Shown: piece after piece, positions 3,304 to 33,356 of the stretch
Layout: every line of letters starts with the position of its first letter
Numbering within the stretch: position 1 is the first letter of the stretch
NCBI RefSeq assembly: GCF_026163685.1
Contig: NZ_JAOXSR010000009.1
Coordinates: 1-64,000, forward strand
From: Oerskovia flava
Lineage (GTDB): Bacteria; Actinomycetota; Actinomycetes; Actinomycetales; Cellulomonadaceae
Length of the DNA: 64,000 bases
Direction: 5' to 3'
The notes under the pieces: generated by a model
Database searches by the model: none
What the model was told of the DNA's origin: nothing
The model's input: only the letters and a program-made list of their open reading frames with translations
Translations under genes and position numbers: made by a program

Positions 3304-3438
3304 CAGGGATCTCCATCGGTTCGCGAGCACGTTCAGGGCGAACGCGTGTGACGCATAGCCTACGTCGGCGGTCAAGACGGCCCCAGGGCCGCACGGACGG
3401 GTGTCGGAGCAGTCCCGGCACGTGGGGTCGGAGGGGCC

Positions 3439-3738: not shown

Positions 3739-3842
3739 CCGTCCATCCTGCCCGGACCCTCGCCCCGCGACCACCGGTGATCGCGTCACACCGGGCGCGC
3801 GGGCGCACCGCCCGCCCGCCGCCGCGACGTAGGCTCGGGCCC

Positions 3843-7560: not shown

Positions 7561-8004
7561 TCAGCTGGCCCCGTTCCAGACGGCGTCCGGTGCGCAGGTG
7601 TCCGGGACGTGCAGGTCCTCCGGTGGCTCCCAGTCCTGGGCGACGCGCTCGCGCAGCACACCGCCCGCGATGCTGATCGCGTCGCCGGCGACGAACGCGC
7701 CGTCGCCGGTCCGCAGGGTCTCGCCGTCCCAGGCCACCCGGTCCTCGTTGAAGACCGGGAGCCAGCGGACCCCGGACCCGTCGGTGATGTAGACGCACCC
7801 GCCGTCGACGGTGAGGCGTCCCTCGATCAGCGCGGCGTCGCCCGCACCCACGCTCGGTCCCCACAGGGCGACCTCGTCGACCGTCACGCCTCCCCTGTCG
7901 CCGCCCCAGGGCCCGACGCAACCGGCTGCGACCGCGCCCACCCCGACGGCGAGCAGCACCGCAGGGGCGAGCGCGTGTCGTCGGGCACGGTCCAGAGCTC
8001 CCAT
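7561..8004 (-). CDS. Putative lipoprotein
   Basis: This is a 147-residue exported protein. A basic n-region (RARRH) is followed by a hydrophobic stretch and the lipobox VAAGC, with the acylated cysteine at residue 29. The mature part contains short beta-rich segments (VYITDGSGVRWLPVF, TLRTGDGAFVAGD) and two cysteines (one near the middle, one in PDTCAPD) that could form a disulfide. No named domain is recognised. It would be anchored to the outer face of the cytoplasmic membrane. Its role is unknown. Confidence 0.7.
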   Translation of the reverse strand: MGALDRARRHALAPAVLLAVGVGAVAAGCVGPWGGDRGGVTVDEVALWGPSVGAGDAALIEGRLTVDGGCVYITDGSGVRWLPVFNEDRVAWDGETLRTGDGAFVAGDAISIAGGVLRERVAQDWEPPEDLHVPDTCAPDAVWNGAS

Positions 8005-8126
8005 GGACCGACCCTAGGACGCGCTCCACGCGTCCCGCGCTCCCGGCTCGGATCGTCATCCGATCGTGACGCCCAGCCCGGGGATCCCTCCCTGACCCTC
8101 AGGACGAGAACTTCTCAGGACCGGCG

Positions 8127-9110
8127 TCACGCCGCGTCGAGCCGTGCTCGGACGTCGGGGTCGAGGTCGAGGTCGACGGCGCCGAGGAGCTCGTCGAGCT
8201 GCTCGACGGTGCTCGGACCGATCACCGGGATCACGGGGTGGTCGCCGCCGAGGAGCCATGCGAGGACGACCTGGTTCGGCGTCGCGCCGACCTGGCCTGC
8301 CACCTCGTGGAGCGTGCGGATGCGCTCACGCGTGGTGGGGTGGTCGAACCCGTCCCACAGCGGCTTGTCCCGCCGCACGTACGCACCCTGAAGGATCGGG
8401 GAGTACGCGACGACGGCAAGCGGTGGCCGCTCCGGCATCCCGGTCGACGCCGCGTAGTCGAGCAGCTCGTACGACGCCCAGTTGTGCCGCCCCGGCTCGG
8501 GTGTCGGATAGACGTACGTGAGGTTCTGCTGGACGAGCCCGTAGGGCGCGATCCCCTGCCGGGACGCTTCCTCGCGTGCCTCGACGACACGCCACAGGGC
8601 CACGTTGGAGATGCCCGTGATCCCGACGGCACCCTCGGCCTGGAGCTTGCCGTACGCCCCGATCGTCTCGGCGAGCGGGGTGTCGAGGTCGTCGACGTGC
8701 CCGTACAGCACGTCGAGGTGGTCCACGCCGAGATGACGCAGGCTCTCGTGGGCCTCGTACGCGACGACTCGCGGGTCAAGACCCTGGAAGTTCGTCGGCT
8801 CGACGTTCTGCAGAGGGAGCGCCGGGTCCTTCTTCGCCGCGCCGAGCTTCGTCGCGAGGCGGACCTGGTCACGGACGCCGCGGTTCGCGAGCCAGCGACC
8901 CAGCAGGTCCTCGCTGTCGCGTCCGTGGCCACCTTGCCAGTAGCTGTAGTTGTTCGCCGTGTCCAGGAACGTCCCACCGGCTTCCAGGTAGCGATCGAGG
9001 ACGGCGAACGACGTGTCCTCGTCGACCTGCGTGCCCATGTTCATCGTGCCGAGGCACAGCGTCGACACGTCGAAGGTGGTCCGGCCGTCGCCGATGGTGC
9101 GGTAGCGCAT
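8127..9110 (-). CDS. Aldo/keto reductase
   Basis: This is a 327-residue NADPH-dependent (beta/alpha)8-barrel oxidoreductase. Catalytic tetrad elements are visible: Asp and Tyr in FLDTANNYSYW, Lys in RLATKLGA, and His in VLYGHVDD. A C-terminal nucleotide-binding segment with IPVIGPSTVEQLDE is present. The start at 9110 is chosen because GGGAGAGCACC precedes the ATG; an upstream ATG at 9152 lacks such a site. It is divergent from the MocR regulator gene with an 80-bp shared control region, so that regulator may act on it. The substrate is unknown. Confidence 0.88.
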   Translation of the reverse strand: MRYRTIGDGRTTFDVSTLCLGTMNMGTQVDEDTSFAVLDRYLEAGGTFLDTANNYSYWQGGHGRDSEDLLGRWLANRGVRDQVRLATKLGAAKKDPALPLQNVEPTNFQGLDPRVVAYEAHESLRHLGVDHLDVLYGHVDDLDTPLAETIGAYGKLQAEGAVGITGISNVALWRVVEAREEASRQGIAPYGLVQQNLTYVYPTPEPGRHNWASYELLDYAASTGMPERPPLAVVAYSPILQGAYVRRDKPLWDGFDHPTTRERIRTLHEVAGQVGATPNQVVLAWLLGGDHPVIPVIGPSTVEQLDELLGAVDLDLDPDVRARLDAA

Positions 9111-9190
9111 GGTGCTCTCCCTGATCGTGCGGGTCATGATGGCGTCGTCCACGCTACGAACTCATCGGCCTGGGTGTACGGTCCGATTCC

Positions 9191-10669
9191 ATGGCAGCGG
9201 AGCAGACCAATCCGTCAGTCCTCGGTCCTCCGACGACGCTCGCCTGGGAGGCGCTGCTCGACCTCGGCACCGGCTCGGGCTCGCGCGTCGCGCGGCTCGA
9301 GCACGCCGTCCGCGACGCCGTGCGCGCGGGCCGGGCGCCCGTCGGCGCGGCCCTCCCGCCGAGCCGACAGCTCGCGGAGACGCTCGGCGTCTCCCGCTGG
9401 GTCGTCACCGAGGCCTACGGCCAGCTCGTCGCGGAGGGCGTCCTGGAGGCGCGCACCGGTTCGGCGACGCGTGTGGCCGCCTCTGCGTCGCCACGTGCCG
9501 CTGCGTCGCGGACCGTCGCCGGTGCGCCACCTGGCAGCGAGGCACGCGTCGCCCCTCGCCTGCCGTACGACCTCGCGCCCGGAGTGCCCGACCTTCGGCA
9601 CGTCCCGCGCGACGCCTGGCTGCGTGCAGCCCGCGAGGCGCTCTCGACGGCGTCGAACGACGATCTCGATGCACCAGCACGGAGCGGCCACCCCCGGGCG
9701 CGCGCCGCGATCGCGGGGCACCTGCACCGGGCACGGGTCGTCGCGGGCGGGCACGAGGCCGTCGTCGTCACGCACGGCGCGACCGACGGGATGGCGCGCG
9801 TGGCTGCCGCACTCGCCGCGGACGGGCACACGCACCTGCTCGTCGAGAACCCGAGCTGGCCGGTGCTGCGCGACGTCGCGGCGCGGGCCGGGCTCGTGCC
9901 CGTCCCGGTGCCAGTCGACGCCGACGGGGTCGACACCGCGGCGCTGGTCGCCGCCTCTCGCCGGACAGGGGCACGGGTCGCTCTGCTCACGCCGGCACAC
10001 CAGTTCCCCACCGGGACGGCTCTCGCTCCCGCGCGGCGCGAGGCCGTCGTCGCCTGGGCGCGAGAGGTAGACGGCCTCGTCGTCGAGGACGACTACGACG
10101 CCGAGTTCCGCTACGACCGACGCCCCGTCGCCGCGCTCCAGGGACTCGCGCCGGACCGCGTCGTGCTGCTCGGCTCGATCAGCAAGACCCTGTCCCCGGC
10201 TTTCGGCCTCGGGTGGATGGTCGTCCCGCCGCGCTGGCGCGAGGCCGTGGCGCGCGAGCACGGGCCGACGTCGGGACCGTCCGTCGTCGAGCAGCTCACC
10301 TTCGCGCGGCTCGTCGGGTCAGGCGCGTACGACCGGCACCTGCGCGCGGCCCGCGGGCGCTACCGACGCCGCCGCGACGCGCTGCTCGCAGCCCTCGCCC
10401 ACGAGCTGCCCGCAGCGGGGGTACGCGGCATCGCCGCCGGCATGCATGCGCTGCTCCACCTGGGAGACGAGGCGCCCGACGCCGCGCACGTCGTGCCGGA
10501 GGCCGCGGCGCGCGCGGTGGCTGTCGTGGACCTGCGCCGCTACCAGGCTCACCCCGTCGCGCTCTCGACGACGATCGTCCTCGGGTATGGCAACCTCGCC
10601 GACGCGCGGGTGGCCGAGGCGGTGCGACGGCTCGCCGACGCCGTGCGCGCGGCCGGGACGTCGCGTTGA
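9191..10669 (+). CDS. MocR/PdxR-type GntR regulator with aminotransferase domain
   Basis: This 492-residue PLP-binding regulator has an N-terminal GntR winged helix at about residues 35-95 (PSRQLAETLGVSRWVVTEAY), a linker, then a class I aminotransferase fold. The PLP lysine lies in LLGSISKTLSPAFGLGW. VVEDDYDAEFRYDRRP carries the conserved cofactor-binding aspartate and tyrosine. MocR proteins control vitamin B6, GABA, taurine or polyamine genes. The divergent aldo/keto reductase is the obvious candidate target, because pyridoxal reductases of that superfamily exist, but this is inference. Confidence 0.88.
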   Translation: MAAEQTNPSVLGPPTTLAWEALLDLGTGSGSRVARLEHAVRDAVRAGRAPVGAALPPSRQLAETLGVSRWVVTEAYGQLVAEGVLEARTGSATRVAASASPRAAASRTVAGAPPGSEARVAPRLPYDLAPGVPDLRHVPRDAWLRAAREALSTASNDDLDAPARSGHPRARAAIAGHLHRARVVAGGHEAVVVTHGATDGMARVAAALAADGHTHLLVENPSWPVLRDVAARAGLVPVPVPVDADGVDTAALVAASRRTGARVALLTPAHQFPTGTALAPARREAVVAWAREVDGLVVEDDYDAEFRYDRRPVAALQGLAPDRVVLLGSISKTLSPAFGLGWMVVPPRWREAVAREHGPTSGPSVVEQLTFARLVGSGAYDRHLRAARGRYRRRRDALLAALAHELPAAGVRGIAAGMHALLHLGDEAPDAAHVVPEAAARAVAVVDLRRYQAHPVALSTTIVLGYGNLADARVAEAVRRLADAVRAAGTSR

Positions 10670-10714
10670 CACATCACCGACCGCAAGCACCACGCGCGAC
10701 ACCCCTGACGGTCG

Positions 10715-11290
10715 TCAGGCGAGCAGGTCGAGCGCCGCGTCGAGGTTCGCGAGCGCCTGCGGATGGTCGACGCGGGTGAGGAGCAGCGCGGAGACGAGGA
10801 GCGCGGTGCACAGGTCGGCGACGCGGTCGTGCTCGGCGGCGGAGCGGTCCGGGAAGTGCGCGACGACGCCGGCGCGGACCGCGGTGCGCAGCTCTGCCCG
10901 GTAGGCGGCGACGGTCTCGCGCACGACGGGGTCCTTGCCGATCGGTGCACCTGCCGCGTTGATGAGCAGGCAGCCGCTCTCGGCCTGGACGGTCCCGGGG
11001 GAGGCGAGCGCGGCACGGAGGCCGGCGAAGTAGTCGATGACCGCGTCGGGTGCGACGTCAGGAGCCGTGAGCGCGGCGAGGCGGGGGCGGACGACCTCGT
11101 CGAGGTAGCTCGTCACGGCGGCGTCGAAGAGCCCGCGCTTGCTGCCGAAGGCGTGGTAGAGGCTGGACCGGCGCAGGCCGGTCGACACCTCGAGGCGTGG
11201 CATCGACGCGTCCTCGTACCCGTGCTCCCAGAAGGTCGCGCGCGCCGCGCGCACGACGTCCGCCGTGTCGAACGTCTGAGGCCTGCCCAT
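10715..11290 (-). CDS. TetR-family repressor
   Basis: This is a 191-residue repressor. Its N-terminal HTH spans about residues 10-55 (ARATFWEHGYEDASM, then LRRSSLYHAFGSKRGLF), followed by an all-helical ligand-binding domain. The start at 11290 is preceded by GGAGGAGCG; the upstream ATG at 11305 overlaps that site and is rejected. It is divergent from a DUF1304 gene and a medium-chain reductase gene, with palindromes in between, so autoregulation and control of the divergent pair are likely. Confidence 0.88.
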   Translation of the reverse strand: MGRPQTFDTADVVRAARATFWEHGYEDASMPRLEVSTGLRRSSLYHAFGSKRGLFDAAVTSYLDEVVRPRLAALTAPDVAPDAVIDYFAGLRAALASPGTVQAESGCLLINAAGAPIGKDPVVRETVAAYRAELRTAVRAGVVAHFPDRSAAEHDRVADLCTALLVSALLLTRVDHPQALANLDAALDLLA

Positions 11291-11314
11291 CCACGCTCCT
11301 CCCACAATTTTTGT

Positions 11315-11352
11315 GAACCGTGCGGTCCAGTATATGTTGTGGAACGATCGTT
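11315..11352. promoter_or_regulatory. Candidate TetR operator region
   Basis: Two palindromes lie between the divergent TetR and DUF1304 genes: GAACCGTGCGGTCC (11315-11328, one mismatch between arms) and AACGATCGTT (11343-11352, perfect). Both are well placed to block either promoter. Which one is the operator cannot be told from sequence. Confidence 0.45.
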
Positions 11353-11397
11353 ACAGAAAAGGTCGGAGCCGCCGACCCCAGACGAAGGAGCAGCCGG

Positions 11398-11784
11398 ATG
11401 ATCGCCGTCGGACTCGTGATCGCTGCCGCCGCCGCGGCACTGCACGTCGTCATCTTCTACCTGGAGTCCGTGGCGTGGACGAGCCCACGGGCTCGCGCGA
11501 CGTTCGGCACGACCCACGAGGAGGCCGAGGCCACCCGTTCGCTCGCGTTCAACCAGGGCTTCTACAACCTGTTCCTCGCGATCGCGACCGTGCTCGGCAT
11601 CGTCCTGCACCTGGCAGGCGAGCAGACCGTCGGGATCACCCTGGTGCTCACCGGCACCGGGTCGATGCTCGCCGCCGCGCTCGTGCTGCTCCTGTCCTCG
11701 CGCGCGCACCGCGCCGCCGCGATCAAGCAGGGCATGCTGCCGCTGCTCGCCGTCCTGGCGACCGTGGCCGGGCTGGTCCTCTGA
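11398..11784 (+). CDS. DUF1304 membrane protein
   Basis: This is a 128-residue integral membrane protein with four predicted hydrophobic segments, starting MIAVGLVIAAAAAALHVVIF. FYLESVAW and FNQGFYNLFLA are the conserved DUF1304 signatures. AAGGAG lies 7 bp before the ATG. Its function is unknown in all organisms I know of. It is transcribed with the downstream reductase gene and divergent from a TetR repressor, an arrangement typical of small stress- or solvent-responsive pairs. Confidence 0.85.
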   Translation: MIAVGLVIAAAAAALHVVIFYLESVAWTSPRARATFGTTHEEAEATRSLAFNQGFYNLFLAIATVLGIVLHLAGEQTVGITLVLTGTGSMLAAALVLLLSSRAHRAAAIKQGMLPLLAVLATVAGLVL

Positions 11785-11867
11785 CCGAGCGACCCGCACC
11801 CCGCACCACCCCGCGTCCTACCCGACGCACCACCCCACCCGCACCCCGCACCCCCGGAGGTCCCCGC

Positions 11868-12893
11868 ATGTCGTCCGCCCTCAGCACGCAGGTCCAGCTC
11901 GTCGCCCGTCCCGAGGGCTGGCCGACCTCCGACGACTTCCGTACCGTCACCGTCGAGTACGGCGACCTCGCCCCGGGCCAGGTGCGCGTGGTCAACGAGT
12001 TCGTGTCCGTCGACCCGTACATGCGCGGCCGCATGAACGACGTGAAGAGCTACACCCCGCCCTTCGCCCTCGGCGAGACCATGACCGGCGGCGCCGTGGG
12101 ACGCGTGGTCGAGACGACGGTCGACGAGCTGCCCGTCGGGGCGCTCGTGCTGCACCAGCACGGCTGGCGGGACGTCGTGCAGGAGGACGCCGCCGGGTTC
12201 CGCGTGGCGCCCGAGATCCCGGGCCACCCGTCGTCGGTCCACCTGGGGATCTTCGGCCTCACCGGCCTCACCGCCTATGTCGGCCTCACCGCGATCGCCG
12301 GCATGAAGCCCGGCGACACGGTCCTCGTCTCCGGTGCCGCGGGCGCCGTCGGGACCGCGGCCGGGCAGATCGCGCGCCTGCTGGGCGCGGCGCGCGTCGT
12401 CGGGTCCGCCGGTGGACCGCGCAAGGTCGAGCTGCTCACGGAGCGCTACGGCTACGACGCCGCCCTCGACTACAAGGCCGCCCCCGTGCGCACGCAGCTC
12501 CCCGCGCTCGTCCCGGACGGTGTCGACGTGTTCTTCGACAACGTCGGCGGCGACCACCTGGAGGCGGCCCTCGACGTCATGAACGACGGCGGCCGCGTCG
12601 CCCTGTGCGGGGCCATCGCCGCGTACAACGCGACCGACCGCGCGCCGGGGCCGGACAACCTGGGGAACCTCATCACCCGCGGGCTGACCCTGCAGGGGTT
12701 CACGCTCGGAGGCTACCTCGGGCTCGCCGCGGAGTTCCGCGAGCACATGTCCGGCTGGTTCGCCGAGGGGAAGATCGCCTACGACGAGACCGTCGTCGAC
12801 GGCATCGACCACACGGTCGACGCGTTCCTGGACATGATGCGCGGCGCCAACGTCGGGAAGATGGTCGTGCGCGTGGGGACGCCCGCCCGGTAG
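11868..12893 (+). CDS. NADPH-dependent medium-chain reductase (curcumin reductase/PTGR family)
   Basis: This 341-residue zinc-independent MDR oxidoreductase reduces alkenal or enone double bonds with NADPH. Family marks include EFVSVDPYMRGRM near the N terminus, the Rossmann motif VLVSGAAGAVGTAAGQIA, and VDVFFDNVGGDHLEAAL. GGAGG stands 7 bp before the ATG. The 83-bp gap after the DUF1304 gene is a cytosine-rich stretch with short CACCCC repeats and no gene. It is probably co-transcribed with the DUF1304 gene and repressed by the TetR protein. Confidence 0.9.
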   Translation: MSSALSTQVQLVARPEGWPTSDDFRTVTVEYGDLAPGQVRVVNEFVSVDPYMRGRMNDVKSYTPPFALGETMTGGAVGRVVETTVDELPVGALVLHQHGWRDVVQEDAAGFRVAPEIPGHPSSVHLGIFGLTGLTAYVGLTAIAGMKPGDTVLVSGAAGAVGTAAGQIARLLGAARVVGSAGGPRKVELLTERYGYDAALDYKAAPVRTQLPALVPDGVDVFFDNVGGDHLEAALDVMNDGGRVALCGAIAAYNATDRAPGPDNLGNLITRGLTLQGFTLGGYLGLAAEFREHMSGWFAEGKIAYDETVVDGIDHTVDAFLDMMRGANVGKMVVRVGTPAR

Positions 12894-23436: not shown

Positions 23437-24846
23437 TCAGGCGCGGACCGTCAGGCCCTGCAGCTCGAGCACCAGGTCGCGCACCGCGGCGGCGGGCACC
23501 TGCCCGCCGTCCGACCCGACGGCGGCCGCCACCGAGGCCGGGACCTGCGCGTCCGAGCAGAGGATCAGCGGGGTGTCGGCCGCCGAGTCCGGGAGGCGAC
23601 CGTGCGTGCCGCGCACCACCGTGGCGTCGAGCGGCACGGTCGACATCGCGTACCGGAGCCCGGCCTTCTTCTTCACGAGGTTCAGCCCGGCCTTCGCCTT
23701 CGCGAACCGGTCGGCCGGGTCGAAGAACAGCTCGGCCGGGTCGTAGCCCGGCTTGCGATGGATGTCGACGCCGCGGGCGTACTCGGGCGCGCGGGCGTCG
23801 TCGAGCCAGAAGTAGTACGTGAACCACGCACCGGGCTCGGCGACGACCACCAGCTCGCCCGACCGCTCGTGGTCGATCCCGTACCGGGCCTGGGCCTCGC
23901 GGTCGAGCACCTCGTCGACGCCCGGGACCGACCGCAGCACGTCAGCGACGCGCCGCACGTGCGCCGGGTCCGCGACGTACACGTGCGCGACCTGGTGGTC
24001 CGCGACCGCGAACGCCCGCGACGTCCACGGGTCGAGCTGCTCGCGACCGTCCTGCACGTAGACCTCGAGCAGCCCCTCCCGGCGCAGCACGCGGTTGAGG
24101 TGCACGGGACGGTTCGCCTCCGCGATGCCGTACTCCGAGACCACGAGGACGGTCACGCCCTGCTCGGCCGCGTCGTCGAGCAGCGGCGCCAGGACGCCGT
24201 CGAGCTCCGCCGCCGCGGCGTCGGCCTGCGGCGAGTCCGGGCCGAACCGCTGCAGGTCGTAGTCGAGGTGCGGCACGTACGCCATCGTCAGGTCGGGGGC
24301 GTGGGTGCGCAGGACCTGGCGGGTCGCGGCGACGATCCACCGGGAGGAGGCGATGGACGCCGTCGGGCCCCAGTAGGTGAAGAGCGGGAAGTCGCCGAGC
24401 CGGTCGACGAGGTCGTCGTGCAGGCTCGGTGGCCGGACGTACGCGTCCGGCGACTTGCGCCCGTCGGCGTGGTAGATCGGTCGTGGGGTGACGGTGGCGT
24501 CGGTCGTCATCCCCATGGCGTACCACCAGCACACGTTCGCGCTGCGGTGGTCCGGGTTCGCCCGCCGGGCCGTCTCCCAGAGCTTCTCCCCCGCGACGAG
24601 CCGGTTGTGCTGGCGCCACAGGAACACGTCGCCCAGCTCGCGGAAGTACCAGCCGTTGCCGACGATGCCGTGCTGGGCCGGCGCCAGGCCCGTGAGCATC
24701 GTCGACTGGACGCTGCACGTCACGGCGGGCAGCACGGTCGCCAGCTGCGAGTCCCAGCCGCCCGCCGCGAGCCGCTGCAGCCGCGGCATGTGGGCGAGCG
24801 CCTTCGCGGTGAGGCCGACGACGTCGAGCAGCAGCACGGGCTTCAT
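23437..24846 (-). CDS. eboF: Alkaline-phosphatase-superfamily hydrolase (EboF-like)
   Basis: This 469-residue protein is of the nucleotide pyrophosphatase/phosphodiesterase type. A metal-binding Asp lies in LLLDVVGLT. The likely Thr nucleophile (about residue 43) is in PAVTCSVQSTMLTG. Further metal-site segments are PHLDYDLQRFG, VSEYGIAEANRP and VADHQVAHVY. It is the last gene of a seven-gene operon and overlaps eboE by 4 bp (ATGA). Ebo clusters carry such an enzyme, presumed to hydrolyse a phosphoester on the exported or modified metabolite. The cytoplasmic location is inferred from the lack of a signal peptide. A 20-bp repeat array lies just downstream. Confidence 0.85.
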   Translation of the reverse strand: MKPVLLLDVVGLTAKALAHMPRLQRLAAGGWDSQLATVLPAVTCSVQSTMLTGLAPAQHGIVGNGWYFRELGDVFLWRQHNRLVAGEKLWETARRANPDHRSANVCWWYAMGMTTDATVTPRPIYHADGRKSPDAYVRPPSLHDDLVDRLGDFPLFTYWGPTASIASSRWIVAATRQVLRTHAPDLTMAYVPHLDYDLQRFGPDSPQADAAAAELDGVLAPLLDDAAEQGVTVLVVSEYGIAEANRPVHLNRVLRREGLLEVYVQDGREQLDPWTSRAFAVADHQVAHVYVADPAHVRRVADVLRSVPGVDEVLDREAQARYGIDHERSGELVVVAEPGAWFTYYFWLDDARAPEYARGVDIHRKPGYDPAELFFDPADRFAKAKAGLNLVKKKAGLRYAMSTVPLDATVVRGTHGRLPDSAADTPLILCSDAQVPASVAAAVGSDGGQVPAAAVRDLVLELQGLTVRA

Positions 24847-26123
24847 ACGGTCCTCCGGACGGATACAGGGGTCGGCGTGGACGCCTCGCCGCCCTCGACC
24901 ACGGGGCTGCTCGCCGCCGAGCCCGAGGTTGATGTCGTTGTGGGCGCCGTGGCGGCAGCAAGGTCGTGTTCGGCGGAAGGGGAGAGGTTCTGCAGCGCCC
25001 AGCGGAGCTCCTGGGCGATGCCTGCCACCAGCGGGTCGTCGCCGTGGTCGGCGACCGCTGCCTCCGGGAGCACCGCCCACGTGTACGTCTCGACGTCGAG
25101 GTGCGCGGCGTCGCCGTAGGGCGCCGCGCGCACCGCCGCCACCGCCGCCCGCAGGACGTCGGTCGTCGCGGCCAGGGGCGGCGCGGGTTCGTGGTGCAGC
25201 GGTACGTGGAAGTGCACGCGCCACGGGCCGGCGCCGGGGAGGTCGTCGAGGGCCTCGGGCAGGTCGTCGGCCGCGAGGACCGCGCCGTCCGCCGCGCGCT
25301 CGCGCACCTGGTGGATGTAGCGCGGCTCGGCGAACCGCCCGACGGCGGAGCGTGCGGCCGGGTCCGCCGGGTCCGCCACGTGCAGCGCGGCCGAGGCCTG
25401 CACCTTGACCACGCGCAGACCCGCGTCGGTGATCCGCCGGACCGCCTCGGCGGGGTCGGCGAACGAGACCGCCAGGTGGCACGTGTCGAGGCACACCCCG
25501 ACGTGCTCGGGGTCGACGGCACCGAGGGGCCCACCCGCCGGGCCGGTGCGCGCAGCGAGCCACGCCACGACGTCCTCGACCGTGTCGAGCACACACCCCG
25601 GCTCGGGCTCGACCGCGACCCGCACGGTCGATCCCGTGCGCGCGGCGATCTCCCGCAGACCGGCCGACAGCTCGGCGAAAGCGGCCGTCGCCGCCGCGTC
25701 GTCGGCCGCCGACCACGGCTCGCGCCAGGCGAGCGGGAGGGTGGAGATCGAGCCGTCCACGCCGTCGGGCAGGAGATCGGCGAGGACCTCGGCGCACTCG
25801 AGCGTGTACGCCAGACGCTCCGGGTCCGCCCAGGTGGGCGAGTAGACCGCGAGCTTGACGACGTCGTCGTGGAAGCCGCCGTACGGGAAGGCGTTGAGCG
25901 TGTGGACCTCGAGCCGGTGCTCCACGAGCGCGGCGCGCAGCCGGTCCCGGTCCTCGGGAGAGCCGGCGAGGCGGTGCGCGAGCACGGCGGGCAGCCACAG
26001 CCCGACCCCGAGGACGTCGAGCCCGGCGGCCTCCCGCACGGGCCCGGCGTACCGGGCGAGCTGGTCGAGGACACCGTCGAGGTCCTCGGCCGGGTGGACG
26101 TTGGTGCAGTAGGACAGTCGCAC
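24843..26123 (-). CDS. eboE: TIM-barrel protein EboE (xylose-isomerase-like)
   Basis: This is a 426-residue protein with a GTG start. The N terminus LSYCTNVHPAEDLDG is diagnostic of the EboE family. NAFPYGGFH, VEPEPGCVLD, VCLDTCHLAVSF and VHFHVPLHHE give the metal-binding histidines, glutamates and aspartates expected of a xylose-isomerase-like barrel. The conserved domain ends near LRWALQNL. The last 45 or so residues are low-complexity Ser/Thr/Ala, and their coding DNA carries a copy of the palindromic element found in cofC. It overlaps eboF by 4 bp and follows eboB by 7 bp. The role is sugar- or cyclitol-phosphate chemistry in the Ebo pathway, substrate unknown. Confidence 0.85.
   Translation of the reverse strand: MRLSYCTNVHPAEDLDGVLDQLARYAGPVREAAGLDVLGVGLWLPAVLAHRLAGSPEDRDRLRAALVEHRLEVHTLNAFPYGGFHDDVVKLAVYSPTWADPERLAYTLECAEVLADLLPDGVDGSISTLPLAWREPWSAADDAAATAAFAELSAGLREIAARTGSTVRVAVEPEPGCVLDTVEDVVAWLAARTGPAGGPLGAVDPEHVGVCLDTCHLAVSFADPAEAVRRITDAGLRVVKVQASAALHVADPADPAARSAVGRFAEPRYIHQVRERAADGAVLAADDLPEALDDLPGAGPWRVHFHVPLHHEPAPPLAATTDVLRAAVAAVRAAPYGDAAHLDVETYTWAVLPEAAVADHGDDPLVAGIAQELRWALQNLSPSAEHDLAAATAPTTTSTSGSAASSPVVEGGEASTPTPVSVRRTV
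24956..24972. repeat. Second copy of the cofC-type repeat arm, in eboE
   Basis: CAGCAAGGTCGTGTTCG differs by one base from the right arm of the element in cofC (5369-5385), and the following GC then GGAAGGGG is also shared. A clear partner arm is not seen, so this copy is partial or decayed. It encodes part of the non-conserved C-terminal tail of EboE. Confidence 0.55.
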
Positions 26124-26130
26124 GGTGCCC

Positions 26131-27003
26131 TCAGGTCCGGACGCCGCGGAGCACGGAGCTGCCCTCGAACTCGGCGAGCCGGACGTCGCCCGCGACGAAC
26201 CCCGGCACCGGGTCGAGCACGAGGTTGCCCGACTGTCCGTAGAACTCCACGGGGTTGCGCCACAGGACCCGGTCGACGTCGTCCTCGGTGAAGCCCGCGG
26301 CGAGCATTGCGCGCCCGGTCTTGAGCGTCTTGAGCGGGTCGGACCGGCCCCAGTCGGCCGCAGAGTTGACGATCATGCGCTCGGTGCCGTGCTCGGTGAG
26401 GATCGCGACCATCCGGTGCTCGTCCATCTTGGTGTCCGGGTAGATGGAGAACCCGGCCCACGCCCCGGCGTCGCGCACGAGCGCGACGTTGGTCTCGTTG
26501 AGGTGGTCCACGAGAACGCGCTGCGCCGGGACACCGGACTCGCGCACGACGTCCAAGGTGCGCCGGGTGCCCGCGAGCTTGTCGCGGTGCGGGGTGTGGA
26601 CCAGGACGGGGAGCTCGGCGACCTGGGCCATCTGGAGCTGACGGGCGAAGACCTCGTCCTCCTCGGGCGTCATCGAGTCGTACCCGACCTCGCCGACGGC
26701 CACGACGCCGTCCTTGAGCAGGTAGCGCGGGATCTCGTCGAGCACCTCGCGGCAGCGCGCATCGTTCGCCTCCTTGGGGTTGAGGGCGATCGTCGCGTGG
26801 TGGCGGATGCCGAACTGCGCGGCGCGGAACCTCTCCCAGCCGAGCAGGGCGTCGAAGTAGTCGAGGAACGACCCGACGCTCGTGCGGGGCTGGCCGAGCC
26901 AGAACGCCGGCTCGACGAGCGCGCGCACCCCCGCGGCGTACAGGGCCTCGTAGTCGTCGGTGGTGCGGCTCGTCATGTGGATGTGCGGGTCGAAGATGCG
27001 CAT
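26131..27003 (-). CDS. eboB: TatD-type metal-dependent hydrolase (EboB)
   Basis: This is a 290-residue amidohydrolase-superfamily protein. Metal ligands: H7 and H9 in FDPHIHM, E105 in GEVGYDS, H136 in LPVLVHTPH, H167 in LVDHLNET and D217 in NSAADWGRSD. The set is complete, so an active hydrolase is expected. It starts within the eboA stop codon (TGATG) and precedes eboE by 7 bp. In ebo clusters this protein accompanies EboA, EboC and EboE. The substrate is not known. Confidence 0.87.
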   Translation of the reverse strand: MRIFDPHIHMTSRTTDDYEALYAAGVRALVEPAFWLGQPRTSVGSFLDYFDALLGWERFRAAQFGIRHHATIALNPKEANDARCREVLDEIPRYLLKDGVVAVGEVGYDSMTPEEDEVFARQLQMAQVAELPVLVHTPHRDKLAGTRRTLDVVRESGVPAQRVLVDHLNETNVALVRDAGAWAGFSIYPDTKMDEHRMVAILTEHGTERMIVNSAADWGRSDPLKTLKTGRAMLAAGFTEDDVDRVLWRNPVEFYGQSGNLVLDPVPGFVAGDVRLAEFEGSSVLRGVRT

Positions 27004-27722
27004 CAGGCGCTCCGTCCGGTGGGGGGCTGCGGGGAGTCGGTCTCGACGTCGGGGGCCAGGCGCACCACGTCGGGCGGGACGACGCGCCCGGCGGCCCGAC
27101 GCTCGGCCGCGAAGTCGCGGGCCATCCGCGCGACCTCGTCGTCGGTGCGGTCGTCGAGCCCCGCGACGGCGTCGAGGCTGACGCCCATGAAGACCAGCTT
27201 GAGGACCGCGTGGCGCCACGCGTGCTGGCCGAGATGCCTCCGGGCGAAGGGGCCGACGGCCGCGGCGACGAGACTCTGGTCGTTGGTGCGCAGCGCGTCG
27301 GCGGCGAGCTCCGTGCCGACGGCCACCACCTCGGGCGCGAGGGACCCGCCCCGCGCGACCAGCGCGTCGAGGCCGCGCAGGACCCCGCGCCGCTCGGCGG
27401 TGTCGCCGTGCTGGTAGAGGTCCGCGAGACGCGCCCCGAGCGCCGCGCCGGCATCCGGTCCGAGCGCGTCGGCGAGGGCGACAACGAGGGATGCGCGCGC
27501 GGCGTCGTCGACCGTGCCGTGCAGCACGCCCGCGGGGTCGACGTCGGGTCGCCGCGGCGACCGGCCGACCGTGCGTCCCGCGAGCGCGAAGGCGCGCGTC
27601 ACCGAGCCCGGGTCCTGCCCGACGTCGGCGAGCGCCTCGGCGAGCCAGCGGTCACCCGGCCCCGGCGCCGGGTGGGTGGCCTCGGTCGGGTCGACGGCCG
27701 GGCTCGTCACGTCCTCGGTCAT
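27003..27722 (-). CDS. eboA: EboA domain protein
   Basis: This 239-residue protein is probably soluble and helical, with no known enzymatic fold. The diagnostic EboA segment is HAWRHAVLKLVFMGVSLDAV at about residues 167-186. The C terminus carries RMARDFAAERRAAGR. GGAGGTGCC precedes the ATG, and the start overlaps the upstream epimerase gene by 4 bp (ATGA). EboA is the defining unknown of the cluster; in cyanobacteria, loss of the cluster blocks delivery of the scytonemin precursor to the periplasm. The metabolite served here is unknown. Confidence 0.85.
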   Translation of the reverse strand: MTEDVTSPAVDPTEATHPAPGPGDRWLAEALADVGQDPGSVTRAFALAGRTVGRSPRRPDVDPAGVLHGTVDDAARASLVVALADALGPDAGAALGARLADLYQHGDTAERRGVLRGLDALVARGGSLAPEVVAVGTELAADALRTNDQSLVAAAVGPFARRHLGQHAWRHAVLKLVFMGVSLDAVAGLDDRTDDEVARMARDFAAERRAAGRVVPPDVVRLAPDVETDSPQPPTGRSA

Positions 27723-28630
27723 GGCACCTCCGTGCGTCTGGTGTGGTCGGTGGCCGCGCGCATCGCGGCCATGCTGCGGCGGGCGAGGCCGGGCGCGTCG
27801 TAGGAGTGGCGCGGCAGCTCGACCGCCGCGACGCCGGTGTAGCCGATCTCGGTGAGCGTGGCGAGCACGAGCGGCAGGTCGATCTCCCCCTCGCCGAACG
27901 GGCGGTGCTCGTGGTGGGTGCGGGGCATGTCGTCGAGCTGGACGTTGGCGAGGTGCGGGGCGGCGGCGCGCAGCGCCCCGACGACGCCGTCGGGCTCGAC
28001 GACCAGGCAGTGCCCGACGTCGACCGTGACGCCCAGCTCGGGCGGTGCGCCGAGCTCCTCGTGCAGGCGCAGCGCGTCGGCGACGGTCTCGACGAGCATG
28101 CCGGGCTCGGGCTCGAGCGAGAGCTGCACACCGTGACCGCGCGCGTTCTCGACGAGGTCGGGGAGCCGGTCGCGCAGGCGCGCCCACCCGTCGGCCGGGG
28201 ACGCGTCGTCGGGCAGGACGCCCGAGAAGAAGGACACGCACTCCGCGTCGAGGCCCGCGGCGATCTCGACGGCCCGCTCGAGGAACCGCACCCGCGCCGC
28301 GGCCTGCGCGTCGACGAGGGTCGGGCGGTGCTTGACGTACGGGTCGAGAAGGAAGCGCGTGCCGGTCTCGACGACGACACGCATCCCCGCGCCGTCGTGC
28401 ATCCCGGCGAGACGCTCCCGCAGCACGTCGACCCGCTCGCCCCACCCGGGCGCGAACGGGTCGAGGTGCGGGAACCCGAGCGTGAGGGCGACCGCGCCGT
28501 ACCCCTCGTGCTCGAGCACGTCGAGCACCACGTCGAGCGGGTGGTCGGTGAACCCGTTCGTGCCGTAGCCGAGCGCGAAGGGCGGAACGTGGTGCCCGAC
28601 GTCGGCCGGCACCCCGGGCGCGCCGCTCAC
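27719..28630 (-). CDS. Sugar phosphate isomerase/epimerase (TIM barrel)
   Basis: This is a 303-residue xylose-isomerase-like barrel, distinct from EboE. FALGYGTNGFTDHPL opens the domain. Metal-site candidates are ETGTRFLLDP, SLEPEPGMLVE, TVDVGHCLVVEPDG and AVELPRHSYDAP. It starts with GTG overlapping the eboC stop (GTGA) and overlaps eboA by 4 bp. It probably interconverts an inositol- or sugar-derived intermediate between the synthase and the later hydrolases. That is inference from operon position. Confidence 0.82.
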   Translation of the reverse strand: MSGAPGVPADVGHHVPPFALGYGTNGFTDHPLDVVLDVLEHEGYGAVALTLGFPHLDPFAPGWGERVDVLRERLAGMHDGAGMRVVVETGTRFLLDPYVKHRPTLVDAQAAARVRFLERAVEIAAGLDAECVSFFSGVLPDDASPADGWARLRDRLPDLVENARGHGVQLSLEPEPGMLVETVADALRLHEELGAPPELGVTVDVGHCLVVEPDGVVGALRAAAPHLANVQLDDMPRTHHEHRPFGEGEIDLPLVLATLTEIGYTGVAAVELPRHSYDAPGLARRSMAAMRAATDHTRRTEVP

Positions 28631-29565
28631 GTCTCGCTCATCTCGGCCCGGCCCGGGCGGCGGGCGGCACGGCGCAGCAGACGGCCCGCGACCTCGACGC
28701 CGGCGAGCACCCCCACCGACCCGAGGCTGCCGCCGCGCGCGGCCCACGCCGCCTGGAGCGGGACCATCGCGCGGATGCCGGCCTTCGTGGCCGTGAACGC
28801 CCGGTCTGCGCTCGGCACCTGCACCGCGTCGAGCTGCGCCGGCAGGCACGTCGCGGCATACAGCACGGCCGCCCCGGTCGCGGCGAGGGCCGTGGCCGCA
28901 CCGGTACGACGACCCGCCCCGGCCGCCGCCGAGCGGCGGCGGTCGGCGAGCACCCCGGCGACGACCGCGCCGACCACGAGCGTGGTCCCGGCGGCCACAC
29001 CCGCTGCCGCGCGCGGCGTCGTGCCGTGCACCTCGCCCCGCGAGAGGACCGTCACGCCCGCGGTGTGCGCCGCGACGGCGGCCGCGGCGGGCAGCGCGGC
29101 GCGCAGCCGCCCCCGGCCCGCACCCATGAGGACGTCGAGACCGCGGCACGCCGCCATCACGGCGGGTCCCGTCGGGTGGTTCTTGGCGGCGAGGTCGTAC
29201 GTCCAGACGCTCGCGGCGAGCGGGACCGCGACGACGACCGACCGCGCGCCGCCGCCCACGGCGGCGAGCCCCAGGCCGGCGGTCGTCAGGCCGCCCGCGA
29301 CGGCGAGCGCCCGCGACGGGCTGACACGGCCGGACGGGATCGGTCGCTCGGGCCGCTCGCGCGCGTCGAGGTCGCGGTCCGCGTAGTCGTTCAGCGCCAT
29401 CCCGCCCGCGTAGAGGCAGGCCGAGGCGAGCGGGAGCGCCACGCGCCGCGGCGTGGGGCGGTGCCCGGCCGCCGCACCGCCCGCGAGCGTGTCACCGAGC
29501 ACGGACAGGACCGCGGGGGCGCGGACCAGGTCGAGGTAGTCGTGCAGGGTCGTCCTCGTCGTCAC
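28627..29565 (-). CDS. eboC: UbiA-like prenyltransferase EboC
   Basis: This is a 312-residue polytopic membrane protein with about eight hydrophobic segments. The first Asp-rich motif NDYADRDLDARERPERPIP (from residue 59) is intact. I did not find an obvious second UbiA Asp motif, so prenyl transfer cannot be assumed. GTG start, coupled to the synthase gene by a GTGA overlap. It is the only integral membrane protein of the operon, so it is where a cyclitol-type head group could meet a polyprenyl lipid, or where export could occur. Confidence 0.83.
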   Translation of the reverse strand: MTTRTTLHDYLDLVRAPAVLSVLGDTLAGGAAAGHRPTPRRVALPLASACLYAGGMALNDYADRDLDARERPERPIPSGRVSPSRALAVAGGLTTAGLGLAAVGGGARSVVVAVPLAASVWTYDLAAKNHPTGPAVMAACRGLDVLMGAGRGRLRAALPAAAAVAAHTAGVTVLSRGEVHGTTPRAAAGVAAGTTLVVGAVVAGVLADRRRSAAAGAGRRTGAATALAATGAAVLYAATCLPAQLDAVQVPSADRAFTATKAGIRAMVPLQAAWAARGGSLGSVGVLAGVEVAGRLLRRAARRPGRAEMSET

Positions 29566-30851
29566 GACTGGTGCGGCGTCTCGGTCGGCGTGCGGTCGGC
29601 GGCACGATCGGCAGCGTGCCCGACCCACCGGGCGAGCTCGGCGGCCTGGTCGGCCGCGCTGTGCACGTCGCTCCCCCACGGGTCCTTGAAGAAGAAGCCC
29701 AGCTCCGGGACCGGGCCGCCCAGACCGGCAGCGTCTGCGAGCGCCAGCAGCCGGGCGAGGTCGAGCACGAGCGGGGCGGCGAGCATCGAGTCGTAGGCGC
29801 TCCAGGTGGTCTGGAGCGTCAGGCGCGACCCGAGGAAGCCCTCGACGTGCACGTGGTCCCACGCGACCTTGATGTCGCCCAGGTCGGGGACGTTGTCGAT
29901 GTGCAGCGGCGTCACGCCGGTGCCCGTGAGGTCCTGCAGCCCGCGGTTCTTCGACGCGAGCTTGCTGCGTACGGCCTGCGGGTCGGCCAGCGTCGCGCCG
30001 TCGCCCCCGCCGAGGAGGTTCGTGCCCGCCCAGGACAGCACGCGCAGCCCGCGCGCCTCGAACGCGGGCGCGAGCACGGTGCGCAGCCAGGTCTGCCCGG
30101 TCTTGCCGTCCTGCCCGGCGACGGGCACGCCCCGCTGCGTCGCGAGCTCGAGGAGGACCGGCAGGTGCATGCTCGCCGACGGGGTGAAGCCCGCGTACGG
30201 CGCGCCTGCGAGGACAGCGGCGTAGGCGACGACGGAGCTCGGCGGCAGCACGGTGCGTGCCGGGTCCGCGAGGGCAGCCTGCAGGAGGTCGAGGTCCTCG
30301 AACTCCGGGGCGGTCTCGGCGGGCGGCTCGGTCGACGCGAGGTCGACGACGACGACCCGGGCCAGGTCGTGCCGGGTCCGGAACGAGTTGATGTCGGCGG
30401 CCAGCCGCTCGGCCGCGCGGCCCTGCGACTCGGGGCCGGCACCAGGGTGCCCGGCCGACCCGGACGAGCCGGCCGACCCGGCGCGGAGGTGGGGGTCGTA
30501 CCCGGGGCGGACCTCGGCGTCGGCCCGCTCGAGGGCAGCGTGCGTCGCGTCGAGGAGCCGCGCGTTGATCATGCCCGCCTCGACGAGCAGCTCGGCCCGC
30601 TTGACCATCGAGACGTCGCTGATGTCGTGGCCGCCGACCACGAGGTCGGCGAAAGCCGGCAGCGGCGCCCCGTCGAAGGGCGGGCGGGCCGTGACACAGC
30701 CGACCGGTTCGGCGAGCCCGGCGGCGATCGCCGCGAGGCCGAGCGTCGCGGTCGTCGCGACCGAGCCCCGGGCGCCGACGAACCAGACGCCGGTCCGCTC
30801 CCGAGCAGGTCGTCGTGCGGAGGTGGGGTCGTGCGCGGCCTTCTGGTGCAT
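29562..30851 (-). CDS. ino1: myo-Inositol-1-phosphate synthase (first gene of ebo-type operon)
   Basis: This 429-residue enzyme converts glucose-6-phosphate to inositol phosphate with bound NAD. The N-terminal NAD motif is VGARGSVATTATLG (residues 25-38). Conserved NLLGGGDGATL, STPSASMHLPV-type and FFKDPWGSDVHS segments are present. The length is that of the short bacterial/archaeal form. GGGAGCG precedes the ATG. It heads the operon and is coupled to eboC. In cyanobacterial and algal ebo clusters the comparable position in the pathway is taken by EboD, a dehydroquinate-synthase-like sugar-phosphate cyclase, so this appears to be a functional substitution. Confidence 0.87.
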   Translation of the reverse strand: MHQKAAHDPTSARRPARERTGVWFVGARGSVATTATLGLAAIAAGLAEPVGCVTARPPFDGAPLPAFADLVVGGHDISDVSMVKRAELLVEAGMINARLLDATHAALERADAEVRPGYDPHLRAGSAGSSGSAGHPGAGPESQGRAAERLAADINSFRTRHDLARVVVVDLASTEPPAETAPEFEDLDLLQAALADPARTVLPPSSVVAYAAVLAGAPYAGFTPSASMHLPVLLELATQRGVPVAGQDGKTGQTWLRTVLAPAFEARGLRVLSWAGTNLLGGGDGATLADPQAVRSKLASKNRGLQDLTGTGVTPLHIDNVPDLGDIKVAWDHVHVEGFLGSRLTLQTTWSAYDSMLAAPLVLDLARLLALADAAGLGGPVPELGFFFKDPWGSDVHSAADQAAELARWVGHAADRAADRTPTETPHQS

Positions 30852-31091: not shown

Positions 31092-32630
31092 CTACCGCAC
31101 GGTCGAGAAGTCGAGCTGGTCGTCGACGACCGCTATCGAGGACCACATGTTGCCCTCGGCGTCGCGCAGCTCGTAGGCAGGCAGCAGCACGGCCGCGCCG
31201 TCGGGCTGGTAGTGGACCGCGAGACCCAGCCGTGCCTCGACGATCGCGACCTCATCGACCGGCCACCTGATCGCGTCCCCGCTCCCGACCGTCGGCGGGA
31301 CGGTGGGCGCCGGCGGCTCGACCCACTCCTGCATCTCGCCCTCGCGCGCCCAGACGACCGGGCCCCCGTACCCGCCGCCGAAGCGCGGGTCACCGAGCCG
31401 CTCGACCGCCTCCTGCGGGCTCACGACGTCGTAGGTGCCGATCGACACCGGCTCCGCCAGGGCGCCGTACATCGACTGCAGCCCACCGCCGGTGAAGGTC
31501 CCGCTCCACGCGCTCCCGGTCCGCTGACCGTCGACGACCTCCTCGGCGTTGACCCACACCCAGGTGTCGTCATCCTCGCTGCGATCCACGACGACCTCGA
31601 AGCGGTCCGCGTCCACACCCACGGTCGCGAGCGCGTCCCGCATCTGGCGCTCCACCTCCCCGTCGCTCGGCGCAGGGCCCAGGTCCCGCTCGGTGCACTC
31701 GCCCGGGTAGTCCGTCGCCGCCTCTTCGTCCGCCGATGCCTCGGGCTCCGACGTGTCGTCGCTCGTGCCGGGCATCGGGAGGATCTCCACCGGGCCGCAG
31801 TACCACGGGTCCTTGGTGGGGTCGTTGTAGTGGAGGCTCGCCAACCCGTCGGGCTGGATGCTCACCGCCGGCCCGGAACCGTCCTGCGGCCCGACCGTCC
31901 AGGAACCGTACTCCGCGCGGACCTCGCCCTCGACACCGAGCGCCGTGGCGAGCCGCAGCGCCTCCTCCTGCGAGAAGACCCCGGCCGCGTCGTACGCGAA
32001 GGCCTCCGCGCTGCCCCCGTCGGCACTCAGGCCGTCCGCACGGAAGACCGTGCGCCCGCCCCAGTAGCCCGGGTAGTACATCGACGACGCCATGTCCTGC
32101 GCCGCCGCACCGTCCGCCATGCCCCCCATCTCGGCGGAGCGCAACGCGCCGAACTCCTCCACGGCCCCGGCATCCCCGCCCCGTCCCCCGCCCTGACCCG
32201 GCCCGGTGAGCACGATGGGACCGAACGCATCGTCTTCGGGACCTCCCGCAGCCCCCACGGCGTACCCGCCCGCACCGACCACGAGGACGCCGGCCACCAC
32301 CGCCGCGACCTGCAGCGGCGCACGCCGACGGCGACGCGCAGCGTCCTCCCGACGGACGGCGAGGTCGACGGGCACCACACCCTGCGAGCGCGCGCCGTCT
32401 TGCGGCTCGTCCGGTCCGGGGCCCGCGTCCGACGCCGTCGGCACCACCGCGATCTTGTCGCGGACCGCGCGGTCGAGCGCCTCCTGGTCGGGCGCGGTGC
32501 GCGCGGCCGGATCCGCGGACCGCACCCGGTCGAACGCCTCGTCCCGCTCAGGGGCTCCGGGCTCGTGCGGTAGGGACTCCGCTGATCCAGGCTCGGGGGA
32601 TCCAGGGACGGGGTGGCTCGTGTCGTTCAT
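31092..32630 (-). CDS. Membrane-anchored partner of sigma factor (anti-sigma-like)
   Basis: This is a 512-residue single-pass protein. Residues 1 to about 100 are acidic, then basic and cytoplasmic (DKIAVVPTASD; RREDAARRRRRAP). One TM helix lies at about 105-127. A large extracytoplasmic part has four cysteines and ends LDFSTVR. I recognise no canonical zinc-binding anti-sigma motif. The role is inferred from position: it follows an ECF-type sigma factor by 38 bp with good GGAGGG spacing, the usual layout for sigma/sensor pairs. The outer domain would sense an envelope signal. Confidence 0.7.
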   Translation of the reverse strand: MNDTSHPVPGSPEPGSAESLPHEPGAPERDEAFDRVRSADPAARTAPDQEALDRAVRDKIAVVPTASDAGPGPDEPQDGARSQGVVPVDLAVRREDAARRRRRAPLQVAAVVAGVLVVGAGGYAVGAAGGPEDDAFGPIVLTGPGQGGGRGGDAGAVEEFGALRSAEMGGMADGAAAQDMASSMYYPGYWGGRTVFRADGLSADGGSAEAFAYDAAGVFSQEEALRLATALGVEGEVRAEYGSWTVGPQDGSGPAVSIQPDGLASLHYNDPTKDPWYCGPVEILPMPGTSDDTSEPEASADEEAATDYPGECTERDLGPAPSDGEVERQMRDALATVGVDADRFEVVVDRSEDDDTWVWVNAEEVVDGQRTGSAWSGTFTGGGLQSMYGALAEPVSIGTYDVVSPQEAVERLGDPRFGGGYGGPVVWAREGEMQEWVEPPAPTVPPTVGSGDAIRWPVDEVAIVEARLGLAVHYQPDGAAVLLPAYELRDAEGNMWSSIAVVDDQLDFSTVR

Positions 32631-32668
32631 GACGCCCTCCAGCTCGGCGATCCGCGGGTCCGGATCCT

Positions 32669-33229
32669 CTACCCCTCCTGTGTCAGCGGGGCGGACGTTC
32701 TTGCACCCGCCCCCTCCTCGGCCCAGGCCGCGCGCAACCGTGAGCGCGCCCGGGAGAGTGCGGCGTCCGCCCCTCCTCGCGAGACCCCGAGCACACCCGC
32801 GAGGTCGTCGCCGCCGAGCCCGTCCCAGGCGTTGAGCAGCAGGATCCGCCGGTCTCGCGGGGAGAGCGCGCCGAGCACCCGCCGCACCTCGTCGTCGACG
32901 ACGGCCAGGTCGGCCGGGTCGACGTCGTCCGGCTCGTCCGGAACCGTCGCGAGCGGCAGCGCACGGGACTTGCGCCGATGGTTGGCGAGCACGAACCCCG
33001 CGGTCCGGTACAGCCAGGGCAGCTCCGCTCCGTCGGGCACGTCCTCGCGGCGGCGCCAGGCCGTGGCGAGCACCTCGGCCGCGAGGTCCTCGGCGTCGGG
33101 ACCCACGCCACCGTCCCGCGACGGCAGCCGACGGCGGAAGTACCGGGAGAGGGCCGTCGCGTGCGCGGCGAAGAGACGCTCGAACCAGGCATCGTCGCGA
33201 GGGCCGCGAGGTACCGCACGGGATGTCAC
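32669..33229 (-). CDS. ECF-type RNA polymerase sigma factor
   Basis: This is a 186-residue sigma-70-family protein. Region 2 includes FERLFAAHATALSRYFRRRL, DAEDLAAEVLATAWRRRED and LPWLYRTAGFVLANHRRKSR. Region 4 is LSPRDRRILLLNAWDGLGG followed by LAGVLGVSRGGADAALSRAR. The start GTG at 33229 has GGAG 6 bp upstream; an ATG further up (33295) would add 22 unconserved residues. It forms a unit with the downstream membrane protein. Its regulon is unknown, but the ebo-type operon lies immediately beyond its partner. Confidence 0.87.
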   Translation of the reverse strand: MTSRAVPRGPRDDAWFERLFAAHATALSRYFRRRLPSRDGGVGPDAEDLAAEVLATAWRRREDVPDGAELPWLYRTAGFVLANHRRKSRALPLATVPDEPDDVDPADLAVVDDEVRRVLGALSPRDRRILLLNAWDGLGGDDLAGVLGVSRGGADAALSRARSRLRAAWAEEGAGARTSAPLTQEG

Positions 33230-33356
33230 AGGGGCTCCAGGTGTCTCGAGTGCGCCTACACCTGCTCTGTGTCGCGGGTACGCCCGATCTTGCACACCCG
33301 CGTCCAGCGGTCCGGCCCGGCTACTCCGACGACCGTCCGGGCTGCCTCACCGACGT

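Follow-up and report, generated by a model that had tools for sequence, protein, structure and literature searches.

A seven-gene ebo-type operon in Oerskovia flava with an inositol-phosphate synthase and a TIM-barrel gene in the place of EboD

The described ebo set comprises six genes, in which EboD is a cyclase with an unknown product (PMC5133447; statements on this and the other cited papers refer to the parts of their text that were at hand). EboD-type operons are reported from Bacteroidota, cyanobacteria, proteobacteria and eustigmatophyte plastids, and actinobacterial TIM-EboA hybrids are mentioned (PMC5133447). In Nostoc, the scytonemin monomer stays in the cytoplasm after each of five ebo deletions, eboD not being among the deleted genes, and a cyclitol-lipid carrier has been proposed for ebo; insertions in the Pseudomonas homologues of eboA, eboD or eboE are reported in the same paper to give an edible phenotype (PMC6282210). 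What EboD acts on and what the ebo pathway produces are still unassigned in the consulted parts of the ebo papers (PMC5133447, PMC6282210, PMC9235831). The word "inositol" is not present in the text of PMC5133447, nor in that of PMC9235831, in which Saccharomonospora is part of the comparison. The listing of the calcium-dependent antibiotic cluster of Streptomyces coelicolor includes SCO3242 and SCO3243, the latter a myo-inositol phosphate synthase (PMC3610822). Here we describe an ebo-type operon of Oerskovia flava (genome size 4.1 Mb), located in a stretch of 64,000 nucleotides (the window; contig NZ_JAOXSR010000009.1, positions 1 to 64,000), in which EboD is absent and myo-inositol-phosphate synthase (MIPS) is present. 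We propose, giving the proposal about an even chance of being right, that in this MIPS-type operon an inositol-phosphate module feeds the ebo core and yields an inositol-headed prenyl lipid used as an export carrier. A description of a MIPS-type ebo cluster was not found in the literature searched, in which subscription journals were mostly not covered.

Seven open reading frames (ORFs) on the minus strand, identified by their coordinates and by Pfam and NCBIfam models, run from 30851 to 23437 in the order MIPS, UbiA, TIM (gene 3), EboA, EboB, EboE and EboF. The operon resembles the EboD-type operons in its EboA, EboB, EboE and EboF homologues and in a UbiA enzyme with N59, D60, D63, D67 and E178. 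It differs from them in having MIPS and the gene-3 TIM without EboD, and in a UbiA of the SCO3242 family. Its gene order matches none of the four named ebo orders (ABCDEF, ABDEFC, FABDEC and DECABF; PMC5133447). An earlier note on the window had placed MIPS in the EboD position; MIPS is indeed present without EboD, but the replacement consists of MIPS plus the gene-3 TIM rather than of MIPS alone.

MIPS enzymes convert glucose 6-phosphate into inositol 3-phosphate. The best solved relative of the operon MIPS is A. fulgidus Ino1 (1u1i, 213 bits), which it resembles in fold family and active-site residues; unlike A. fulgidus Ino1, it sits in a prenyltransferase operon. Residues D248, K250, N278, K297, K301, K328 and K389 are invariant in all 81 actinobacterial rows, a set that leaves out Gemmatirosa and includes five unlinked copies (L190-L194), and the same seven are found in 4/4 gemmatimonadete and haloarchaeal rows. 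All protein sets were built from ORFs of at least 70% of the query length, and the UbiA, TIM, EboE and EboF sets may contain Gemmatirosa. Three of the MIPS residues (N278, K301 and K389) align with positions altered in three solved Ino1 variants, and we take all seven positions to belong to the active site. With these residues retained, the operon MIPS looks intact. It scores 27.8 bits on the mycothiol-type model TIGR03450, far under the cut-off of 638. The window genome has two MIPS genes; the second is on contig C9, and a 163-residue piece of it reaches 348 bits with the same model (mycothiol type).

The only 3-dehydroquinate synthase of the window genome lies on a different contig and scores 112-125 bits against a set of five EboD references; these match one another at 319-414 bits. 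An EboD concealed elsewhere in this genome, a possibility that the earlier note had raised against its own reading, is rejected on these scores. Of the 396 Actinomycetota genomes sampled, 18 have EboA, among them the window genome. No EboD-like protein was found among the 26 3-dehydroquinate-synthase places in the EboA genomes (maximum 152 bits against the five references), which are spread over 17 of the 18 genomes, none having been found in the incomplete G318.

The UbiA enzyme scores 333.3 bits on the SCO3242 family model (NF045897, cut-off 260) and 149.9 bits on the EboC equivalog (NF035940), under the cut-off of 250. Gene 2 had been taken for EboC; it falls in the SCO3242 family instead. 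Of the EboA and EboC domain matches looked for, that of EboA lies above its cut-off (Table 1) and that of EboC below. The top match of the UbiA beyond these two families is a model of digeranylgeranylglyceryl phosphate (DGGGP) synthase (54.4 bits). In the Halocatena UbiA the DGGGP-synthase model comes second, behind a general prenyltransferase model, and EboC has likewise been matched to DGGGP synthase (PMC6282210). All 86 rows have E178, and 85 of them have N59, D60, D63 and D67; the rows of Aureibacter, Azospirillum and four haloarchaea carry the same residues.

In the gene-3 TIM, E173, D204, H207, H240 and H242 are conserved in 91/91 rows and E271 in 89/91, a set that presumably forms a metal site. 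The protein weakly matches inosose and sugar isomerase models. Its homologues stand beside MIPS and YcaO on plasmids of Roseomonas and Hymenobacter (42-43% identity). Similarly, on two unannotated Methylobacterium plasmids (L205 and L208), where MIPS and TIM alone were matched, matches of the Streptomyces TIM (47-48%) lie ~5 kb from MIPS. The occurrence of gene-3-like TIM next to MIPS in non-ebo clusters indicates that this TIM is tied to MIPS and not to ebo. At the EboD-type Ketogulonicigenium locus, a neighbouring TIM protein gave no BLAST match to gene 3. The Roseomonas cluster (L203, 6407-14588) combines an archaeal-type MIPS with YcaO, a Gfo/Idh/MocA oxidoreductase and the TIM, and MIPS with the same three partners is found in Hymenobacter (L202, 6593-13219); the combination of MIPS, YcaO and TIM may represent a second, non-ebo inositol cluster.

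Besides the window there are 18 EboA loci (17 genomes), and 16 of them have the complete seven-gene row in unchanged order. This recurrence, while the flanks vary, shows that the arrangement is not due to chance. In a search of the 396 genomes with the window MIPS, in which up to four candidates were scored per genome, ebo-type MIPS (at least 261 bits) was found in 17/18 EboA genomes vs. 0/378 EboA-negative genomes; the EboA-positive G279 reached 219.6 bits and the top EboA-negative genome 223.4 bits. A further 80 named EboB loci, the best 80 of 586, are all actinobacterial and say nothing on other phyla. MIPS is found at 65 of them; nine of the other 15 stop at a contig edge before MIPS and six do not, so that MIPS stands at 65 of the 71 loci not cut by a contig edge and is usual, not universal. 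EboD was not matched at any of the 80 loci. The expectation that the synthase would always be adjacent and EboD always absent thus held at these loci for EboD and failed for the synthase. Undisturbed seven-gene rows remained at 51/80 loci after hit filtering, and some absences of EboE, TIM, UbiA and EboA may reflect the overlap filter. MIPS was also matched in 28 of 30 actinobacterial plasmid records with EboB. The seven-gene unit is a conserved cassette in actinobacteria. In the window's own class, 12/12 genomes matched by MIPS at 1e-30 are EboA-positive; other classes of the phylum (families f17, f19, f30, f45 and others) have a resident archaeal-type MIPS of 108-223 bits, mostly without EboA.

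The sample from other phyla is small and plasmid-based: 21 non-actinobacterial plasmid records have EboB, of which 15 were examined (two being plasmids of one Salipiger strain) and the other six belong to Mycetohabitans (two) and Ketogulonicigenium (four). Ten of the 15 carry an annotated 3-dehydroquinate synthase (EboD) and no MIPS match, and the gene-3 TIM gave a single weak match among these ten, inside EboE; in Gloeothece (L098), EboB and EboD stand alone. No locus among the 15 carries both cyclases. Gemmatirosa has MIPS, a gene-3-like TIM (53% identical to the Streptomyces gene-3 TIM), UbiA, a short EboA match, EboB, EboE and EboF. Plasmids of Halocatena, Halobaculum and Natronococcus have MIPS, EboB, two TIM proteins, UbiA and an EboF-like protein together, with no EboD annotated. 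The MIPS-type ebo cluster, which the earlier note had framed as actinobacterial, therefore recurs in one gemmatimonadete and three haloarchaea, which is new here; its conservation in actinobacteria stands. The haloarchaeal clusters (L102, L103 and L104, with L103 assessed from annotation only) resemble the window operon in MIPS, EboB-like, TIM, UbiA and EboF-like genes, with identities to the window of 40-44% for MIPS, 34-40% for EboF and 44% for EboB. They differ in having two TIM proteins, one of them a distant EboE relative (25-28%), no EboE-annotated gene and another order, and in a UbiA below both the EboC and the SCO3242 cut-offs (L102). EboA gave no match in L102, L104 and the Haladaptatus locus L108.

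The MIPS and the core have separate histories. The actinobacterial ebo-MIPS form one clade (support 97/99). In a quick tree this clade is separate both from the archaeal-type MIPS resident in other classes of the phylum and from the MIPS of the YcaO clusters; that tree omits two long-branch rows, four of its resident rows were shortened by trimming, and L234-L239, missed by the motif search, are not in it. The EboB tree groups Gemmatirosa with the EboD-type Deinococcus (100/100), with the haloarchaea apart. A single MIPS-type EboB clade is rejected (approximately unbiased test, p-AU 4.6e-35), with at least two changes on the starred branches, and is disfavoured by the EboF tree (p-AU 0.018). 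In the UbiA tree, one branch (support 70/15, at a point where long branches meet) sets off the MIPS type, and a single lineage is not rejected. MIPS-type operons as a single inherited lineage are thus rejected by EboB and disfavoured by EboF, though not by UbiA. Since the EboB tree rejects one MIPS-type lineage, cyclase and core have recombined more than once, and UbiA may travel together with MIPS. The tree shows an exchange between cyclase and core without telling which part moved.

The core proteins agree with the assignments of EboA, TIM, EboB, EboE and EboF-like made beforehand, which the domain models bear out (Table 1). On the narrower family NF035937 the window EboA scores 56.3 bits, under the cut-off of 320. 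Its predicted structure is all-helical (predicted local distance difference test, pLDDT, 94.0); as to a HEAT/armadillo-type repeat, Foldseek gave generic helical-repeat matches only, none of them significant (best E 0.13), and VIA-align Z values of up to 11.9 lie within the range of that tool for common helical arrangements. The window EboB is 36-72% identical to ten EboB from other loci and 36-59% identical to those of EboD-type clusters. The window EboF is 52% identical to that of Azospirillum and 47% to that of Aureibacter, and T43, D195, Q199, E238, Y239 and H363 are present in 96/96 rows. Aligned to phosphonoacetate hydrolase (3szy and 1ei6), Q199 replaces a histidine and E238-Y239 replaces an aspartate-histidine pair. 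Substitutions at the three aligned positions extend to the haloarchaeal, Aureibacter and Azospirillum rows, position 199 being leucine in three of four haloarchaea. We take these three positions to be metal ligands in phosphonoacetate hydrolase, and the difference makes the hydrolase label of EboF unsure. The previously suggested trimming of the product by the hydrolases is accordingly doubtful for EboF.

In the proposed pathway, the ebo core of EboA, EboB, EboE and EboF would be fed by a module of MIPS, gene-3 TIM and SCO3242-family prenyltransferase, with EboD and an EboC-type enzyme taking the place of this module in other phyla. The operon MIPS would cyclise glucose 6-phosphate to inositol 3-phosphate. 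An enzyme of known family reaction replaces EboD in lineages whose EboB is not monophyletic, which points to a cyclitol phosphate as the entry compound, and inositol 3-phosphate is the likely one. The gene-3 TIM, which co-occurs with MIPS, would isomerise the cyclitol. Within the membrane, the UbiA would then prenylate a hydroxyl group of the phosphorylated polyol, in the manner of DGGGP synthase in the making of archaeal lipids; such an O-prenylation is plausible. EboB, EboE and EboF may finish the head group, and the all-helical EboA may hold the enzyme set together. The inositol-headed prenyl lipid would help to export a metabolite, by analogy with the scytonemin monomer in Nostoc, which needs ebo genes to be moved; we infer this carrier function. 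MIPS in the place of EboD names a testable head group, inositol, the haloarchaeal loci extend ebo-type clusters into archaea, and the operon supplies a defined enzyme set for a question standing since the ebo operon was named in 2016. A broader version, tentative and clearly the less likely, is that ebo operons generally make a carrier lipid of the prenyl-cyclitol type, the ring coming from either of two unrelated cyclases, with cyclase, isomerase and prenyltransferase exchanged as a module round a shared core. In actinobacteria, the gemmatimonadete and haloarchaea the product would then be an ether lipid of inositol and would represent a new class of export carrier for small molecules, common to bacteria and archaea.

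Several observations weigh against the inositol-lipid proposal. The operon has no dehydrogenase to supply the ketone that a TIM isomerase would normally need, and EboF differs at the three expected metal ligands. EboC-type enzymes have so far farnesylated quinoline acids, in three marine Bacteroidota genera (PMC9235831). Among the actinobacterial loci, the second ebo copy of G128 (L029) is without MIPS, and L039 of G279 (7699-12628) is without MIPS and TIM, with interrupted matches to UbiA and EboE; L039 is apparently a decaying or misassembled locus. MIPS is absent at six of the 71 uncut named loci; five of these six genomes hold ebo-type MIPS elsewhere (305-409 bits), and in S. alanosinicus (L158) it was not found anywhere in the genome. 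On the Streptomyces plasmids L243 and L244, EboB, EboE and EboF alone were matched within 8 kb of EboB, a trio that may act without the remaining genes. Haladaptatus L108 has the haloarchaeal set without either cyclase. The MIPS of the haloarchaeal clusters is placed among haloarchaeal MIPS from outside ebo loci, the UbiA tree unites the MIPS type weakly, and in the trees of EboB and EboF the grouping does not match cyclase type. Finally, the sole MIPS of the complete genome G268 is ebo-linked, which also fits plain inositol supply.

Two other explanations are unlikely and a third far more so. The better of them holds that the MIPS paralogue has switched reaction and yields a different cyclitol phosphate nearer to the EboD product, all ebo operons sharing one head group. 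The solved relatives do include a synthase with another product, the five-membered-cyclitol-phosphate synthase 6k96, and the ebo-MIPS clade is distinct from both the mycothiol-type and the resident archaeal-type MIPS. However, the operon MIPS is far closer to the archaeal Ino1 than to 6k96 (45.5 bits), and all seven positions aligned to the Ino1 active site are kept in the 81 rows. A slightly weaker candidate is that MIPS provides free inositol for phosphatidylinositol, mycothiol or an osmolyte, and that the ebo operon has lost its cyclase or obtains its cyclitol elsewhere. The ebo-linked MIPS is the sole MIPS in G268 and in the incomplete G318, and some ebo loci are entirely without MIPS; yet two MIPS places are present in each of the other 16 EboA genomes, ebo-type MIPS tracks EboA across the sampled genomes, and the pairing of MIPS with ebo recurs in Gemmatirosa and haloarchaea. 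That the cluster degrades or repairs an inositol-containing compound, with TIM enzymes and hydrolases as catabolic steps, is very improbable: TIM, TatD-like and phosphodiesterase-like folds are frequent in catabolism and the TIM weakly matches inosose and sugar isomerase models, but MIPS and UbiA prenyltransferases are building enzymes, and the published ebo mutants were without product, the metabolite not being moved (PMC6282210).

The inositol-lipid proposal concerns a compact unit. Adjacent genes overlap by 4 bp at the MIPS/UbiA, UbiA/TIM, TIM/EboA and EboE/EboF junctions and by 1 bp at EboA/EboB, and a 7-bp gap separates EboB from EboE, in agreement with the single run of seven genes described earlier. 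Upstream, the nearest same-strand ORF has its end at 31092, which leaves 240 bp to the operon, and the downstream ORF, ending at 23248, is convergent with it; the seven-gene unit is thus bounded on both sides.

Table 1. Genes of the MIPS-type ebo operon in the window
Feature	Coordinates	Strand	Model scores
Myo-inositol-phosphate synthase (MIPS), archaeal (A. fulgidus Ino1) type, 429 aa	29562..30851	-	PF07994 175 bits, PF01658 101 bits
UbiA-superfamily prenyltransferase, SCO3242 family (EboC counterpart), 312 aa	28627..29565	-	PF01040 66.5 bits; NF045897 333.3 bits
Xylose-isomerase-like TIM barrel (gene 3), 303 aa	27719..28630	-	PF01261 125 bits
EboA, 239 aa	27003..27722	-	NF035938 145.8 bits, cut-off 50
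EboB, TatD-like metallo-hydrolase, 290 aa	26131..27003	-	PF01026 46.8 bits, cut-off 27
EboE, TIM barrel, 426 aa	24843..26123	-	NF035939 440.6 bits, cut-off 250
EboF, alkaline-phosphatase-superfamily (type I phosphodiesterase family), 469 aa	23437..24846	-	PF01663 221 bits

Upstream of the operon (31092-33295) lie an extracytoplasmic function (ECF) sigma factor and a 512-residue protein without a Pfam match. Among 101 sequences searched, homologues of the 512-residue protein occur only at the locus of Cellulosimicrobium arenosum (L110), and those of the sigma factor at L110 and, weakly, L144; C. arenosum also provides the nearest relative of the window EboB (91%) among the matches listed, the best 80 of 586. 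A DUF4241 flanking gene and three of four neighbours checked from the Streptomyces plasmid L099 did not recur in the same 101 sequences, and the fourth neighbour, a response regulator, matches five other loci at varied positions. Flanking genes as members of the system were therefore ruled out, the tested neighbours not being conserved. The genes of L099 already carry individual labels in public annotation. A gene annotated as ScyD/ScyE family (3076-4275) immediately precedes the MIPS-type cluster of L099 on its upstream side and has a match in one of the 101 sequences. At two Streptomyces-type ebo loci without MIPS (L029, 12412-15308, and L181, 3703-6125), the upstream ORFs resemble by eye a flavin adenine dinucleotide (FAD) oxidoreductase and an inositol-monophosphatase-like protein.

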